Part shown: positions 54,676 to 63,037 of the stretch, in pieces
Numbering within the stretch: the first letter of the stretch is position 1
How the letters are laid out: the number at the start of each line of letters is the position of its first letter
From: a virus
Virus record (IMG/VR): IMGVR_UViG_3300044971_001477
Location: 1 to 64,000 of that record
DNA: 64,000 bases
Direction: 5' to 3' (one strand)
Position numbers and translations under genes: made by a program
The notes under the pieces: model-generated
Seen by the model: only the letters and a program-made list of their open reading frames with translations
Databases searched by the model: none
What the model was told of the DNA's origin: nothing

Positions 54676-54706
54676 TTTGGTAATTAATAAGACTTTACTA
54701 TCTTTG
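54676..54706 (+). promoter_or_regulatory. Host-type promoter for tmRNA, TTTG-N19-TATCTTTG
   Basis: -33 TTTG at 54676-54679 and -7 TATCTTTG at 54699-54706, spacer exactly 19. It is followed at 54719-54730 by GTTCTTTAAAAT, which looks like boxA, and then the tmRNA 5' end. Confidence 0.8.
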
Positions 54707-54732
54707 TACAAGAAATAAGTTCTTTAAAATAT

Positions 54733-55119
54733 GGGGGTAACTTGGAATTGACTGGCATTGTTAGTTATTCGGGGCACGCAGTGAGATGTATCCTTTCACT
54801 TAAATCTACGGATGTAAACAGTAAACGGAAACGTTTTAAACAAAATGGCGACAATCGGATTAATCCGTGAAGACGCTGCGGTAGTTGCCTAACATATAGG
54901 AAACAACCATACGGGTCGGTGGACATACAACCTAGGAACAGAAGTCTTTACAAGGGTGGAAAAATGACTGAACCCAAAATTGAGTCATCCATTGGTTGTT
55001 AGTTTACGATGGTGAAGAACGAACTAACTATTTTTGGAACATTAGAAAATGTTATCCTAAGCGTGTAGTCCTTAATAGGTAAGGTGTACAACACGAGGGT
55101 TCGAACCCCTCTACCTCCA
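54733..55119 (+). ncRNA. ssrA: tmRNA (trans-translation RNA)
   Basis: 387 nt. The 5' GGGGGTA pairs with 3' TACCTCC to form the acceptor stem, including the G3-U70 wobble that marks alanine, with A73 as discriminator. The T-arm is GAGGG-TTCGAAC-CCCTC. The tag reading frame probably resumes at GCG 54848 and gives ATIGLIREDAAVVA, stop TAA at 54890. The ending AAVVA differs from the common ALAA of bacteria but keeps small hydrophobic residues. CCA is not encoded. It rescues stalled ribosomes and marks products for proteases; here it is likely coupled to the phage ClpC-like unfoldase. Confidence 0.93.
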
Positions 55120-55125
55120 CTAATT

Positions 55126-55157
55126 AAACCTCATCTTAAAAAGGTGGGGTTTTTTTA
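55126..55157 (+). terminator. Terminator of tmRNA
   Basis: Stem AAACCTCA / TGGGGTTT with T-run, 7 nt after the tmRNA 3' end. Confidence 0.85.
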
Positions 55158-55193
55158 TACACATAAATTAAATTACAAAACTTTTTTTAAAAT

Positions 55194-55222
55194 AAAAAAA
55201 CCCCAAGATTATTGAGGTTTGA
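55194..55222 (-). terminator. Terminator of the large noncoding RNA
   Basis: Minus-strand stem AAACCTCAATAATCTTGGGGTTT followed by a run of T. It is back to back with the tmRNA terminator. Confidence 0.8.
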
Positions 55223-56141
55223 TTAAAAATCGTATTCTATATATTGGGTAATTTTAAAAAGGGCTGAGAATACACCGTTTTGTGAGAATCTTTAGAAGGA
55301 TTATTGTTTCCCTTCATTTCCACCATCTTTTGAATGGTAATCCTCATCGCCGATTGGTTAGACCAATCACTTCTTAAGGTTTTAACTACTCTATTACTAC
55401 TCTACTCTCCTCAATCTTGCGAACTGACTTAGGATTCGACTCCTTAGAGGTTTTTGGTAACAATATACGTTGACTTGCGGTCTCGGTATGCCATGAACAA
55501 CTCATGACTATGTAGGCGACTTTCATCAAAACCTGACGAACACTTTTGCTTATAGTTATTTTAGTTTTACTTAAATTTAGTATAAGTTATGTGTTGTGGA
55601 TGATTCCAAGTAGAGGTCCGTCTTAAGCCTCGTTGTCTTTTGAACAACAAGATACTTTTCTACTCGGTAGAGTGTCCCCACTCTCATATTTTAAGATTAC
55701 TTCGTACCAAGACCTTGGTGGGTCTGTGGTAAGGATATTAGCGACACCACTCGTTCTCTATCTTACCTTCAGGTTTTATCCCTTCGGTTTTAAGTCACCT
55801 CTTATATTGGGACCCGCAATTGTGTATTTGGAGTACACTTCTCACTTGGCCCCTATGGGTTATTCTTATTGGTGTTCCCACCTCAAACTGACAATCCACA
55901 TTGCCCGTTCAGTTTTCCATTTCCCTACGAAGTTATCCTCGGTACTACAGGCTCACTGATATCCCACTTGTATACTCGAGTTCGGTTACCCGAACCGCAA
56001 AACCATTAACACGATGATTTCACTTTATCCCCCTTTCGAGGTTTATTTAACGACCATATACGGCCGATTATCTTTTATACAACACCGAAGTGTTGTAATG
56101 GATAATAATATTTCAAAGAACGTTTCGGACTCTTCCGATTT
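55195..56141 (-). ncRNA. Large ornate noncoding RNA (GOLLD/ROOL-like class candidate)
   Basis: About 945 nt between a triple promoter array and a terminator, without a credible protein. Many compact hairpins are visible: ACAACAC-TTCG-GTGTTGT (56079-56096), CCTC-GAAA-GGGG (~56029-56042), GTTCGG-GTAA-CCGAAC (55980-55995), GGTG-GGAA-CACC, AGAGTG-GGGA-CACTCT and a T-arm-like AGGA-GTCGAA-TCCT. The number of GNRA and UUCG tetraloops is typical of a folded structural RNA. Length, position beside tRNAs/tmRNA, and phage setting match the GOLLD (~800 nt) and ROOL classes; the exact family is not verified. The leader has a boxA-like GTTCTTTGAAAT at 56110-56121. Confidence 0.75.
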
Positions 56142-56147
56142 GTTTTA

Positions 56148-56179
56148 CAAAGATAAGTAAACTTTTTCAATTTACCAAA
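56148..56179 (-). promoter_or_regulatory. Host-type promoter 1 for the large noncoding RNA (proximal)
   Basis: -7 TATCTTTG at 56148-56155 and -33 TTTG at 56176-56179, spacer 20. First of three near-identical units of about 90 bp. Confidence 0.75.
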
Positions 56180-56236
56180 TCTTTTTTTATTTTTTTTAAA
56201 GATTTGTATCTGAATCGTTATCTATCTCTTTTGTTG

Positions 56237-56268
56237 TACAAAGATAAGTAAACTTTTTCGATTTACCA
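56237..56268 (-). promoter_or_regulatory. Host-type promoter 2 (repeat copy)
   Basis: TATCTTTG at 56237-56244 with TTTG at 56265-56268; same flanks (GTTTACTTATCTTTGTACAA) as copy 3. Confidence 0.7.
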
Positions 56269-56330
56269 AATCTTTTTTTATTTTTTTTTTAAGATTTGTA
56301 TCTGAATTGTTATCTATCTCTTTTGTTGTA

Positions 56331-56362
56331 CAAAGATAAGTAAACTTTTTTGATTTACTAAA
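56331..56362 (-). promoter_or_regulatory. Host-type promoter 3 (repeat copy, distal)
   Basis: TATCTTTG at 56331-56338; the -33 box is TTTA instead of TTTG. Unit spacing 89 and 94 bp. Confidence 0.6.
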
Positions 56363-56375
56363 TTTTTTTTTAAAG

Positions 56376-56405: not shown

Positions 56406-57098
56406 TTAATTATTTATAATTTTTTTAATCTTATCTATTTGTTCGACAAGTCTTTTATTATTACCATAATCTTCTTTGAAAGCTGTCTTAATGTTTTTAC
56501 CGACACCTTTGATGTTTTTACCGACACCTTTGGTAATATCATTGGCAATTGAAAATGGGGATAATAATGTGTCTAAGAAAACATTACCAGACCCAACATT
56601 TTTATTTCCAATATCAAGTTTAGGGTCATTATCAAGTTTAGGGTCATCTTGTATTGGTTTATTTTTTTTAGGGTCTTCTTTTTTAGGGTCTTCTTTTTTA
56701 GGTTCTTCTTTTTTAGGTTCTTCTTTTTTAGGCTCTTCTTTTTTAGGACCAACCCCTTTTAGATATGTTGATACGTCTAATTTTTTATCATCATTGTTTT
56801 TTATTGAGTAACTAATTCTATCGTCAGTGAAATACCCAATAATTTGACCTTGTTTTATTCTATCGCCTGGTGAAACAAATGATTTACCGACATTACAAAA
56901 TTCGGAATATATATCATCACCATTAAACTCATGTTTAATTTTAATAAAATTTTCACAAGAAGGTGTTCTGTCAAAAATAATAACACCGTCATACGGATTT
57001 ATTAATTTTGAATTTGGGTATGCAATTAAATCAACAGATTTTGACATCATAGATGATTTCATATTACCATACGGGGCTGGGTTAATAAATTTTTCCAT
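56406..57098 (-). CDS. Degenerate M23-like (LysM/peptidase-fold) protein with KKEEP repeats
   Basis: 230 residues. Residues ~35-105 follow the M23/lipoyl-like beta-sheet: INPYDGVIIFDR, then FVSPGDRIKQGQIIGYFTDD, the V.pGd.V..GQ.IG motif of M23 peptidases. The zinc ligands HxxxD and HxH are missing (ISYSIK stands where HLHFE is expected), so it is probably not an active peptidase. A linker of KKEEP/KKEDP units (~118-150) follows, then a helical tail. It overlaps the M15 endolysin stop/start by 1 nt and may help anchor or regulate it. Confidence 0.65.
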   Translation of the reverse strand: MEKFINPAPYGNMKSSMMSKSVDLIAYPNSKLINPYDGVIIFDRTPSCENFIKIKHEFNGDDIYSEFCNVGKSFVSPGDRIKQGQIIGYFTDDRISYSIKNNDDKKLDVSTYLKGVGPKKEEPKKEEPKKEEPKKEDPKKEDPKKNKPIQDDPKLDNDPKLDIGNKNVGSGNVFLDTLLSPFSIANDITKGVGKNIKGVGKNIKTAFKEDYGNNKRLVEQIDKIKKIINN

Positions 57099-59986: not shown

Positions 59987-60009
59987 AATAGTTATTATTC
60001 ATTATTTTG

Positions 60010-60082
60010 CGGTCCCGACGGGATTCGAACCCGTATCTCGCACCGTGACAGGGTGGAATTGTAACCATTCAACCACGGGACC
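60010..60082 (-). tRNA. tRNA-Asp (GTC)
   Basis: Acceptor GGTCCCG / CGGGACC, T-arm ACGGG-TTCGAAT-CCCGT, anticodon loop CTGTCAC with GTC, discriminator G. Stem position 27-43 is a mismatch. CCA is not encoded. Confidence 0.9.
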
Positions 60083-60195
60083 AAAAGTTTGTGAGACCCG
60101 CTCCTCACTCTGAACTTGTACTTTGTTCTATTAAGCGTTTATTTAGTAAAGTCAAGGTATGAACCCTTATCGTAGTAAAGCTTGGTTGGCTATAG

Positions 60196-60267
60196 TAGTC
60201 CCACCGGGAATCGAACCCGACTTTCCAGGATGAAAACCTGACGACCTAACCGATAGTCGATGGGACC
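60196..60267 (-). tRNA. tRNA-Glu (TTC)
   Basis: Acceptor GGTCCCA / TGGGACT (G1-U72), anticodon loop TTTTCAT with TTC, T-arm loop TTCGATT. Discriminator A. Confidence 0.85.
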
Positions 60268-60275
60268 AAAAATCA

Positions 60276-60334
60276 GGGTAGACACGGGCCTAGCTAGCCA
60301 TCTTTCAGGAAAGGCCCTTACGAATATTCTACCC
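60276..60334 (-). ncRNA. tRNA-like structured spacer element
   Basis: Seven perfect outer pairs GGGTAGA / TCTACCC like an acceptor stem and an inner stem GGGCCT / AGGCCC, but no tRNA D- or T-arm and no anticodon loop. It lies exactly between tRNA-Glu and tRNA-Met and would be excised with them. Could be a processing signal, a small RNA or a reduced tRNA. Confidence 0.5.
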
Positions 60335-60343
60335 TTTTGTTGT

Positions 60344-60414
60344 TGCGGGAACAGGGCTCGAACCTGTAATCTCGGCTTATGAGACCGAGCGGATGACCAA
60401 TTTCCACATCCCGC
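60344..60414 (-). tRNA. tRNA-Met (CAT), elongator or Ile2 type
   Basis: Acceptor GCGGGA / TCCCGC (7th pair mismatched), anticodon loop CTCATAA with CAT, T-arm ACAGG-TTCGAGC-CCTGT. It lacks the G-C-rich anticodon stem of initiators. It could be a lysidine-modified tRNA-Ile. Confidence 0.85.
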
Positions 60415-60420
60415 GATATG

Positions 60421-60494
60421 TAGTTAATATTGGACTCGAACCAATGACCTATTCCGTATCAGGGAATTGCTCTAACCAACTGAGCTAATTAACT
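60421..60494 (-). tRNA. tRNA-Ile (GAT)
   Basis: Acceptor AGTTAAT / ATTAACT, anticodon stem ATTCC / GGAAT with loop CTGATAC (GAT), T-arm ATTGG-TTCGAGT-CCAAT. Discriminator A. Confidence 0.9.
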
Positions 60495-60506
60495 ATATTT
60501 TTTTTG

Positions 60507-60580
60507 GGTAACTAATGGGAATTGAACCCATGGCACAAGGTACCACAAACCTTTGCTCTACCAACTGAGCTATAGTTACC
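60507..60580 (-). tRNA. tRNA-His (GTG) with encoded G-1
   Basis: Acceptor GTAACTA / TAGTTAC plus an extra 5' G opposite C73, the usual His identity. Anticodon loop TTGTGGT (GTG), T-arm ATGGG-TTCAATT-CCCAT. Confidence 0.9.
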
Positions 60581-60761
60581 ATTTATTTGCAGTTAAGTAG
60601 CTGACACACACTCTCGTTTCACCATCTTATGTCAACAGGTTAATGTACTTTACAAGTTTCCCGTTTCTTACCACCACAATATTTTAATGTCAATGAACTT
60701 CTTCTTTCTTTACGGGAGTAGGACATCAACCTCTCACTTCCTACCCCCGTTGTTTGCCTTA
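60581..60761 (-). other. Structured leader of tRNA operon
   Basis: About 180 nt between the promoter and the first tRNA, with no gene. A strong stem CGGGAGTAGGA / TCCTACCCCCG (60713-60749, read on plus) stands near the 5' end. The stem sequence resembles the GGGTAGA element between tRNAs. Role likely in processing or protection. Confidence 0.5.
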
Positions 60762-60792
60762 CAAAGATACAAACTTTTTTTAATCTACCAAA
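60762..60792 (-). promoter_or_regulatory. Host-type promoter of tRNA operon, TTTG-N19-TATCTTTG
   Basis: -7 at 60762-60769, -33 TTTG at 60789-60792, spacer 19. It lies at the 3' end of the neighbouring gene. Confidence 0.8.
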
Positions 60793-60980
60793 TAAACTTC
60801 AAAATTATCATTTTTTAATGTCCATTTTCTGAATTTATCAAACATTCCGTTGGCGTAATGTGAGTCCAAAGAGTCGTTGATAAAATCAATTACCATTTCT
60901 TTTTGAATATTTTCGTCTGTAATTTTGAGTTCTTTCATTCTATTAAGAACACTATTGGGTATGTTAATTGTTATTTCCAT
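60780..60980 (-). CDS. Hypothetical small protein (ribbon-helix-helix-like?)
   Basis: 66 residues from the ATG at 60980. ITINIPNSVLNRMKELKITD then ENIQKEMVIDFINDSLDSHY has the strand-helix-helix order of small ribbon-helix-helix proteins, which would suit a DNA-binding regulator. -7 box TATCTTTG (60985-60992) ends 4 nt before the ATG: a leaderless arrangement. Confidence 0.55.
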   Translation of the reverse strand: MEITINIPNSVLNRMKELKITDENIQKEMVIDFINDSLDSHYANGMFDKFRKWTLKNDNFEVYLVD

Positions 60981-60984
60981 ATCA

Positions 60985-61016
60985 CAAAGATATATAATCA
61001 CTTTTGATTTGCCAAA
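60985..61016 (-). promoter_or_regulatory. Host-type promoter, TTTG-N20-TATCTTTG
   Basis: -7 TATCTTTG four nt before the ATG at 60980, with TTTG about 20 nt further upstream. Confidence 0.7.
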
Positions 61017-61037
61017 CAATTTGTAAAATATTTTTTA

Positions 61038-61532
61038 TTATTTTACTTCAAACGCATAAAACAATATACGTTTTTTCTTGGTTGAATCTTCATAGTTACC
61101 AATCACAACACCATCTTTAATTGTGAAAGCGTGACGACTAACTAACATAAAAAATGTCCCAACAGGGTTTTGTTTTGTAAAAGTACCAACAGTCATTTTA
61201 CGGTTAACCTTTTCACCCTTTACGTTAACGGTATATTCTAATGTGCGTCTATTGTAATTGTTTAATTTACCAACACATTTAACTTTTTTGTAATTTATTT
61301 GAGTTCTATTCTCCGCAAGTTTGGTCATTTTATTTACAGTACCATAAGTTCCTTGACGGTTATTACGACCAAAGTTATCTCTAACGTATCCGTGAGCATA
61401 ATTGTAAGACACATCAAAACAAGATGCGAATGCTCTTACAACACAATCATTTTTTTCATTTTTCGCAATTTGGGATTCTTCATAACCTTTAATCGCTTTT
61501 TCTGTATTACAATATGGTAGTGAGTCTTTCAT
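61038..61532 (-). CDS. Papain-like-fold phage protein
   Basis: 164 residues from the ATG at 61532. NDCVVRAFASCFDVSYNYAH places a Cys in a helix start (DCVVRA) as in papain-like cysteine peptidases; the His lies in LVSRHAFTIKDGVVIGNYED and the Asn/Asp follows. This family (C..RA..., then H.f.i.dg) is common in large phages and host-interaction cassettes. It may cleave or modify a host protein. A TATCTTTA box lies 4 nt before the ATG. Confidence 0.65.
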   Translation of the reverse strand: MKDSLPYCNTEKAIKGYEESQIAKNEKNDCVVRAFASCFDVSYNYAHGYVRDNFGRNNRQGTYGTVNKMTKLAENRTQINYKKVKCVGKLNNYNRRTLEYTVNVKGEKVNRKMTVGTFTKQNPVGTFFMLVSRHAFTIKDGVVIGNYEDSTKKKRILFYAFEVK

Positions 61533-61608
61533 ATTGTAAAGATACAAAAAATTTTGTAATCGGAGTCTACTTGTGCGAAAAATATTAAACTAATAAATTA
61601 AAATTTTT

Positions 61609-61653
61609 ATCTTTTAACCCAAAACCACGGGTCCTACCATTAGACCAAAAGAC
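61609..61653 (-). pseudogene. Truncated tRNA remnant
   Basis: GTCTTTT / AAAAGAT pair as a 7-bp acceptor-like stem, with a clear tRNA D-arm GGTCTAATGGTAGGACC between them, but anticodon and T-arm are missing or collapsed (45 nt in total). Upstream of the holin-like gene on the opposite strand. Confidence 0.5.
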
Positions 61654-61672
61654 TGTTTTACTATTTTTTTGA

Positions 61673-61681
61673 TATTTATAG
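61673..61681 (+). promoter_or_regulatory. Putative late promoter element (TATTTATAG)
   Basis: Rightward copy 30 nt before the holin-like ATG at 61712. Confidence 0.5.
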
Positions 61682-61711
61682 TCTGGCATAAACCTTTAAT
61701 CAACATTAAAA

Positions 61712-61876
61712 ATGACTAAAGAACAAATCCAAGGTATCGTTAGACACGCACTTACTTTTGTAGGTGGTATCCTGATTATGAAAGGTCTTGCAACTGATTC
61801 ATCAGTACAAGAACTTATCGGAGCAGCGGTTACACTTGTAGGTGGTGTGTGGTCAATTATTTCTAAAAAGAAATAG
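61712..61876 (+). CDS. Holin-like two-helix membrane protein
   Basis: 54 residues: MTKEQIQGIVRHALTFVGGI then LIMKGLATDSSVQELIGAAV and TLVGGVWSIISKKK. Two hydrophobic segments (~10-25 and ~36-50), a short polar turn, and a lysine end: the plan of small class II holins. Late-type promoter upstream, terminator downstream. It would release the M15 endolysin, whose gene lies 3.4 kb away on the other strand. Confidence 0.7.
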   Translation: MTKEQIQGIVRHALTFVGGILIMKGLATDSSVQELIGAAVTLVGGVWSIISKKK

Positions 61877-61900
61877 TTGATAAATACCAAATCAAAGAAA

Positions 61901-61926
61901 AAAGGGGGAATTATCCCCCTTTTTTT
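61901..61926 (+). terminator. Rho-independent terminator after holin-like gene
   Basis: Stem AAGGGGGAA / TTATCCCCCTT followed by T-run. Confidence 0.85.
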
Positions 61927-61951
61927 GTTTATTGATGTAAAAAAATTATCA

Positions 61952-62659
61952 CTAATTAATTTTTAATTTACACTCATTACAGAACTCTTTAGTGTCTAAA
62001 CCGTGAGATTTCATGATACAAGATTGGTTATTACAGTGAGATAACCCAAAGTTATGTCCTAATTCGTGTACCGCAGTATGAACTAAACTAGTATTATTAT
62101 AGTGATTGTTGTTTCTCATTTCTTTAGTACTGATAACAGAGCCGTCACAATTAATTCTTGCGTGTCCACTAATCAAATCATTAGAATTTTCATTACATAA
62201 TGGTTCGTCAGTAACATACATATTCATATTTGATTTACCAACAGATAATGTTAATACTTTGTACGCTAATAATACGTTAGTGTTATTGTCATAGTAAAAA
62301 TCATCTGACTCAACACTTTCAGAGATGACACAACGGATACCGTAGAAGTTTTCAACACCTTCTTTGATTGTATAAAGGTCACTTTGAGTATATTTACCAA
62401 AACCGTGGATGTTGATTACTCGGTCAGAACTAACTTCAGTTGAAGATGGTTGTTTTGAATCAGTAATTTTAACCTCTTCTTCTTTTGAATAGTTCTTGTC
62501 ATAACCGTAAACTTTGTCAAGTCTTTTTGCCTCAGACTCCAAAGAACCCATTACTTTGTCATAACTATAGTCGTATTTTTCCAAATACTCATTGGTTCCT
62601 CCGATAACAAAAACCATCAAACCAATATAAACGATGTCTTTAAGTGCTGAATATTTCAT
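61952..62659 (-). CDS. Archaemetzincin-like zinc protease with N-terminal membrane anchor
   Basis: 235 residues. The C-terminus carries HELGHNFGLSHCNNQSCIM then FCNEC: HExxHxxGxxHC-x4-CxM-x10-CxxC, the archaemetzincin pattern (usual spacing before CxxC is ~17). The two metal Cys clusters and the Met-turn are all present. Residues ~8-22 (DIVYIGLMVFVIGGT) form a signal anchor, so the catalytic domain would face the periplasm or outside. Host-type -7 box TACATTTG ends 4 nt before the ATG. A phage-encoded member is unusual; the target is unknown. Confidence 0.75.
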   Translation of the reverse strand: MKYSALKDIVYIGLMVFVIGGTNEYLEKYDYSYDKVMGSLESEAKRLDKVYGYDKNYSKEEEVKITDSKQPSSTEVSSDRVINIHGFGKYTQSDLYTIKEGVENFYGIRCVISESVESDDFYYDNNTNVLLAYKVLTLSVGKSNMNMYVTDEPLCNENSNDLISGHARINCDGSVISTKEMRNNNHYNNTSLVHTAVHELGHNFGLSHCNNQSCIMKSHGLDTKEFCNECKLKIN

Positions 62660-62663
62660 ACCA

Positions 62664-62671
62664 CAAATGTA
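62664..62671 (-). promoter_or_regulatory. Host-type -7 box (TACATTTG)
   Basis: 4 nt upstream of the ATG at 62659; matches TAnnTTTG. Confidence 0.6.
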
Positions 62672-62697
62672 CTATTTTTTTTTAATCTACAAAAAAA

Positions 62698-62949
62698 TTA
62701 TTCATTTTTTAAATCGTCAATCATCATTTTTTTTAAAATTGATGGATTATTTTTCCACTCTTTCCAAGTTTCAAAATCTTTCAACCTTTCTAAGGTTTGT
62801 TCGGGTATAAGTAAAAACCCTTCAGGTGTTATACCATCATATTTATGAAAATGTGAATTTTCTATTTTTTCCGTAATCATTTGACAAAATAGTTCGCTAT
62901 TAACAAACTCGTTGTGTTCTTGTTCTAAGATATTGTCATGTCTTCCCAT
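62698..62949 (-). CDS. Hypothetical small protein
   Basis: 83 residues (GRHDNILEQEHNEFVNSELF), acidic, helical; no family recognised. A tRNA-Arg gene lies immediately upstream on the same strand. A TTTATTATATGGG segment before the ATG resembles the late element only loosely. Confidence 0.5.
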   Translation of the reverse strand: MGRHDNILEQEHNEFVNSELFCQMITEKIENSHFHKYDGITPEGFLLIPEQTLERLKDFETWKEWKNNPSILKKMMIDDLKNE

Positions 62950-62963
62950 ATAATAAATTTTAG

Positions 62964-63037
62964 TGACCTCGACTGGATTCGAACCAGTAACCTACACATT
63001 AGAAGTGTGTTGCTCTGTCCAATTGAGCTACGAAGCC
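62964..63037 (-). tRNA. tRNA-Arg (TCT)
   Basis: Acceptor GGCTTCG / CGAGGTC (two wobbles), anticodon stem ACACA / TGTGT with loop CTTCTAA (TCT), T-arm ACTGG-TTCGAAT-CCAGT. It reads AGA, the common Arg codon of this AT-rich genome. Confidence 0.92.

Follow-up and report, generated by a model that had tools for sequence, protein, structure and literature searches.

Results

The GOLLD locus and its surroundings

The window, a 64,000-nucleotide stretch of viral DNA that covers the greater part of a virus record of 66,753 bases, encodes T4-type head and portal proteins and carries tRNA genes at 60009–63037. On the minus strand, at 55191–56143, lies the gene for a structured RNA of about 950 nt, its ends inferred from a promoter and a terminator. 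A phage tmRNA gene on the plus strand (54733–55122) converges with it. This is the phage location of GOLLD genes, with the tmRNA adjoining. The tmRNA, which was called by Rfam and not by ARAGORN, is followed by a terminator-like hairpin (55126–55152) and holds a possible tag frame, ATIGLIREDAAVVA*, at 54848–54892 (plus strand). On the far side of the RNA gene, a 15-bp tandem repeat at 56637–56747 encodes the KKEEP/KKEDP linker of a protein at 56406–57098.

The Rfam GOLLD model (RF02032) matches the RNA over the model's full length (positions 1–416 of 416) and scores 324.3 bits (cut-off 150; 4e-92), whereas the ROOL model gave no match at its gathering score in this window. The matched part, at 55261–55667 (minus strand), is the 3′ domain. 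Since the match is full-length and above cut-off, the RNA at 56143–55191, judged by its sequence, is a member of the known GOLLD family. The original prediction had left a choice between GOLLD, ROOL, a relative and a new class, to be settled by such a covariance search; the first option stands, and ROOL and a new class fall away.

The proximal promoter ends at 56148 (minus strand), which places the putative transcription start near 56143, and an intrinsic terminator (55190–55220, minus strand) combines a terminator-like hairpin and a T run at 55220–55198. Terminator-like sites around the region number 10, against 1.4 in shuffled sequences. The boundaries proposed earlier, 55195–56141, were accurate to within a few bases.

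Covariation supports both domains

At least 119 IMG/VR stretches with the GOLLD motif were collected, and two huge-phage GOLLD loci (LR756502 and LR745206) were added. Many of the collected loci align to the whole length of this RNA at 65–98% identity, and 57 dereplicated full-length phage homologs formed the covariation set. Their consensus comprises 224 pairs, in which 95.9% of the cells are paired; this share falls to 38–45% when the partner column is slid and to 80% when the 3′ letters are shuffled. Changes on both sides occur in 150 of the 224 pairs; the 5′ domain contributes 79 of the 150 and the 3′ domain 69. In an independent alignment of half of the 5′ domain, 40 of 51 pairs show two-sided changes, a count reached by none of 500 shuffles. 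The stems of the 5′ cap domain and of the 3′ ring domain are thus supported by covariation.

The transcript fold is more stable than that of dinucleotide shuffles (z = −5.1), and stems closed by UUCG and GAAA loops, as described from the bare sequence, are present. The longest ATG open reading frames in the homologs average 59 amino acids, against 58 in shuffles, and conservation tracks stem covariation and not codons. The view of the region as an ornate noncoding RNA of about 0.95 kb with no plausible protein is therefore borne out, and a protein-coding reading is ruled out by the frame lengths and the covariation.

A lineage-specific 5′ domain and a variable linker

The 5′ domain (55669–56105, minus strand) lies outside the Rfam model and holds 111 consensus pairs, among them the 79 with two-sided changes in homologs. 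An A+U-rich variable linker at 55549–55595 (minus strand) matches by position the linker that is disordered within the cage of the solved GOLLD structure. At the linker start, AUCCAC (55601–55596, minus strand) forms six covarying base pairs with the 5′-domain hairpin loop GUGGAU (55899–55894). The two ends of the linker also pair with covariation (55622–55618 with 55539–55535), as does the first 5′ hairpin loop with 55974–55970.

A covariance model built from the second half of the 5′ domain matches two held-out loci (L002 and L017) and, at 94–103 bits, the huge phages LR756502 and LR745206. It found no match in three Firmicutes GOLLDs, nor did nhmmer, although the 3′ domains of the same three do match. 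This distribution fits the published rule that the 3′ domain is universal and the 5′ domain divergent.

Cage contacts are retained as covarying pairs

GOLLD (the env-38 RNA) has been solved by cryo-EM as a 14-mer that has a 5′ cap and a 3′ ring and holds a disordered linker inside (Kretsch et al. 2025, PMC12286853). Its contacts include an intermolecular kissing loop between L20 and J13/15, a self-pairing dinucleotide in L21a that switches between GC and CG, and a contact between L27 and J24/26 (PMC12286853). We sought contacts beyond secondary structure by a mutual-information scan and a loop count; the matching of sites to the published numbering is our own, from position and description. 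The L20 bridge (B7) corresponds to a hairpin at 55472–55482 (minus strand) whose loop pairs with 55549–55548; at 55548 and 55478, 29 homologs have C-G and 28 have G-C. For L27, the pair 55318 with 55270 is U-A in 41 homologs and A-U in 16. The L21a bridge (B8) maps to a hairpin at 55432–55444 (minus strand) with a palindromic dinucleotide, GC in most homologs and CG in 11, this window included. With the B7 and B8 pairs, contact sites for 14-mer assembly are kept, and by homology the RNA is predicted to assemble into the 14-mer cage.

Tandem promoters and a boxA-like leader

Upstream of GOLLD, on the minus strand, stand three tandem promoters of the Bacteroidota type (TTTG...TAnnTTTG). The proximal one reads TTTG-N20-TATCTTTG (56148–56178), and the second and third lie at 56239–56269 and 56331–56361. 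All belong to a 92-bp unit present in 2.6 tandem copies (56139–56372), each copy of which has a TTTG-like box and a TATCTTTG box. Two or more promoters occur in 43 of the 56 dereplicated homologs whose upstream DNA reaches far enough. The TAnnTTTG box is that of the Bacteroides sigma-ABfr promoter (PMC7366714), and Flavobacterium promoters share the same −7 box (PMC9723704). A generic sigma-70 scan gave no promoter at the right place, whereas the Bacteroidota pattern did. The expectation that the RNA has its own promoters and terminator thus held, the promoters not being of the sigma-70 type; the original prediction had missed the strand, the Bacteroidota promoters and the rRNA-type leader altogether. 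To judge from the promoters only, the phage host very probably belongs to the Bacteroidota. A host-range search with one large phage protein gave no match in the phage collection.

Between the proximal promoter and the 5′ domain, a short hairpin, TCGGAAGAGTCCGA (56125–56138, minus strand), is followed by a boxA-like element, CGTTCTTTGAAA (56111–56122, minus strand). The element stands at the leader position in 51 of the same 56 homologs, where 0.4% would be expected, mostly 26–28 nt downstream of the −7 box. Among homologs about 70% identical, the 12-mer hardly changes while the sequence upstream varies, and it is kept where the flanking leader and promoter have been replaced (L041, L055, L119 and L122). 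L025 and L376, two loci whose 5′ domain is a different one, also keep a boxA-like element, which in one of them fits the gamma-proteobacterial consensus GYTCTTTAANA (consensus from PMC5725501); in L025 the 5′-domain covariance model found no match.

We also considered boxA as a universal feature of GOLLD and rejected it. The element is absent from the Streptococcus and Lactobacillaceae members, so that GOLLD can do without boxA, which is a trait of this phage group and not of the family.

The window holds exactly two copies of GTTCTTTRAMAT, one in the GOLLD leader and one in the tmRNA leader, where 0.17 would be expected. The tmRNA copy, an exact GTTCTTTAAAAT at 54719–54730 (plus strand), follows a Bacteroidota-type promoter at 54676–54706 (plus strand). 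Among relatives, L043, L069 and L119 carry the element in their tmRNA leaders, L037 carries it there with one change, and L059 and L006 do not carry it there. A further sequence, GTTCATTGACAT at 60687–60698 (minus strand), differs from boxA by one change and lies upstream of the tRNA cluster at its tRNA-His end, with a perfect promoter match ahead of it (60762–60792). A one-mismatch boxA search of the window gave matches no more often than chance, which makes this tRNA-cluster site only a lead.

The leader resembles those of Bacteroidota rRNA operons

A pattern scan of genomes found the element ahead of 16S and 23S genes, and it also precedes some host tmRNA genes. As a check independent of the element, we read the leaders upstream of 16S genes in 16 Bacteroidota genomes. 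In Bacteroides and others, AGTTCTTTGAAA follows a promoter and a hairpin, and further genomes of this set carry the variants AGTTCATAGACA and AGTTCTTAAAAG. An element of the exact type is present in 11 of the 19 16S leaders read, in genomes that were reached via an earlier boxA pattern and so do not sample the phylum at random; related elements occur in most of the remaining leaders with enough upstream DNA. The phage GOLLD leader accordingly has the form of an rRNA leader, with the boxA sequence of the host group downstream of a promoter and a short hairpin.

In nascent rRNA, boxA is bound by NusB-S10, which aids rRNA folding and is thought to loop boxA to the polymerase (PMC5725501). Noncoding RNAs were, by its own statement, outside the scope of that boxA study (PMC5725501).

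The same leader precedes other phage RNAs

Searching IMG/VR in reverse, with the leader pattern TAnnTTTG-N26-GTTCTTTGAMA, we found that 81 of at least 121 matches listed lead to GOLLD, a count that includes GOLLD loci collected before and so is not a pure rate, though the contrast with a scrambled-boxA control (0 of 34 matches) is still large. About 20 of the matches look like chance. Patterns for other GOLLD lineages returned nothing, or mostly loci already known.

The remaining leader matches include tRNA arrays behind promoter and boxA (L297, L299 and L263) and, in L294 and L298, tRNA-Leu-like genes that have group I introns nearby. These introns (L294, 460–653; L298, 5365–5591) closely follow the leader, apparently inside the tRNA-Leu-like gene. 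Unnamed RNAs are also among them, at L256 and at L260 and its relatives. In L256 (2670–3767), a stretch of at least 700 nt behind promoter and boxA has neither an Rfam match nor an evident protein and is a candidate for a new large RNA. The second is a recurrent candidate RNA of about 330–450 nt (L260, L283, L289, L304, L314 and L325) with the same promoter and boxA and a strong hairpin at its end; it is represented by three distinct sequences, and the members scanned gave no Rfam match. A permuted tmRNA (RF04321) was seen within a phage tRNA array at L329 (5406–5627).

Discussion

Taken as a whole, the locus is likely to be a GOLLD gene of a Bacteroidota phage that is transcribed by the host through a boxA leader and yields a predicted cage RNA. 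An rRNA-type promoter and boxA leader on phage GOLLD genes appears to be unreported; our literature search, which took in few subscription papers, found no link of GOLLD or ROOL with boxA, so that the claim to novelty is provisional.

The alternative that deserves most thought is an ordinary GOLLD in which CGTTCTTTGAAA is a structural piece pairing with the conserved 3′ AAGRAG, and not a site for Nus factors. RNAalifold does pair CGTTCTTTGAAA with 55377–55370 (93% of cells paired), and the element has a constant place adjoining the 5′ domain. The pairing, however, is backed by hardly any two-sided changes, one side being nearly invariant, and several homologs, this window among them, have uncompensated C-A mismatches. 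Moreover, the 3′ partner AAGAAGTG is retained in a Streptococcus GOLLD that lacks the boxA element, while boxA itself occurs ahead of phage tmRNA and tRNA genes and host 16S and 23S genes and persists in L025 and L376 despite their different 5′ domain. We regard a purely structural role as unlikely.

Less probable still is a leader that contributes nothing to the RNA, being no more than a strong promoter region or DNA inherited alongside the gene. Many homologs do have promoter and leader together, as this would predict, but boxA outlasts the replacement of the DNA around it in four loci, and its near-invariance stands against the variation upstream in homologs about 70% identical. As for the stems being a product of chance folding, or of a gene that is antisense or codes for protein, an open frame of 108 amino acids does exist on the plus strand; with frames no longer than in shuffles, overwhelming covariation that by itself refutes this explanation, and an Rfam match at 4e-92, we give it practically no credence.

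On the favoured reading, a GOLLD gene with a working boxA leader, host RNA polymerase would transcribe the gene from tandem promoters that match the sigma-ABfr pattern. About 20 nt into the transcript, boxA would recruit NusB-S10 as on pre-rRNA, a step suggested by the shared layout, and the bound complex would tie the 5′ end of the RNA to the polymerase. We propose that an untranslated RNA of 950 nt would thereby be helped to completion and folding, so that the phage may use the host's rRNA-type Nus machinery both to transcribe and to fold its GOLLD RNA. Transcription would end at the intrinsic terminator, and the RNA would fold into the 5′ cap and 3′ ring domains, whose stems covary. Kissing loops, by homology with the solved GOLLD, would then assemble a 14-mer cage around the A+U-rich linker. 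A likely role is that of a very abundant RNA compartment during infection, which might, more speculatively, hold or shield RNA or a translation component.

We lean, with less assurance, towards a broader proposal: in Bacteroidota phages, a leader that mimics rRNA, with sigma-ABfr promoters and boxA, may be common to GOLLD, tmRNA, tRNA arrays and two or more unnamed RNAs, host Nus factors lending processivity to the transcription of giant phage RNAs and aiding their folding. If so, new phage RNAs could be sought by way of the leader, which already points to more structured phage RNAs that lack an Rfam family. For GOLLD cages, whose structure is solved, use of the rRNA boxA leader would name NusB, S10 and their partners as candidate host factors, would help to explain how an untranslated RNA of this length is completed and folded, and would tie GOLLD to ribosome-like expression.

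The RNA shares with the GOLLD family its place in a phage near tRNAs and tmRNA, and with the solved GOLLD a full 3′ domain, a variable linker and a separate 5′ domain, together with the L20–J, L21a and L27–J24/26 contacts, kept here as covariation. Its 5′ domain, of a lineage found in these phages and in LR756502/LR745206, sets it apart from the three Firmicutes GOLLDs, and it carries an rRNA-type leader; a search of the text of PMC12286853 found no mention of boxA. ROOL is likewise a large, cage-forming phage RNA near tRNAs, but its Rfam model does not match here. The lambda nut site and the suhB boxA also employ boxA outside rRNA, although on mRNAs, where here it precedes a structured noncoding RNA. 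With the Bacteroidota rRNA operon leader, the phage leader has in common the TAnnTTTG box, the short hairpin and then [A/C]GTTCTTTGAAA, the difference being that it precedes a phage noncoding RNA in place of 16S or 23S.
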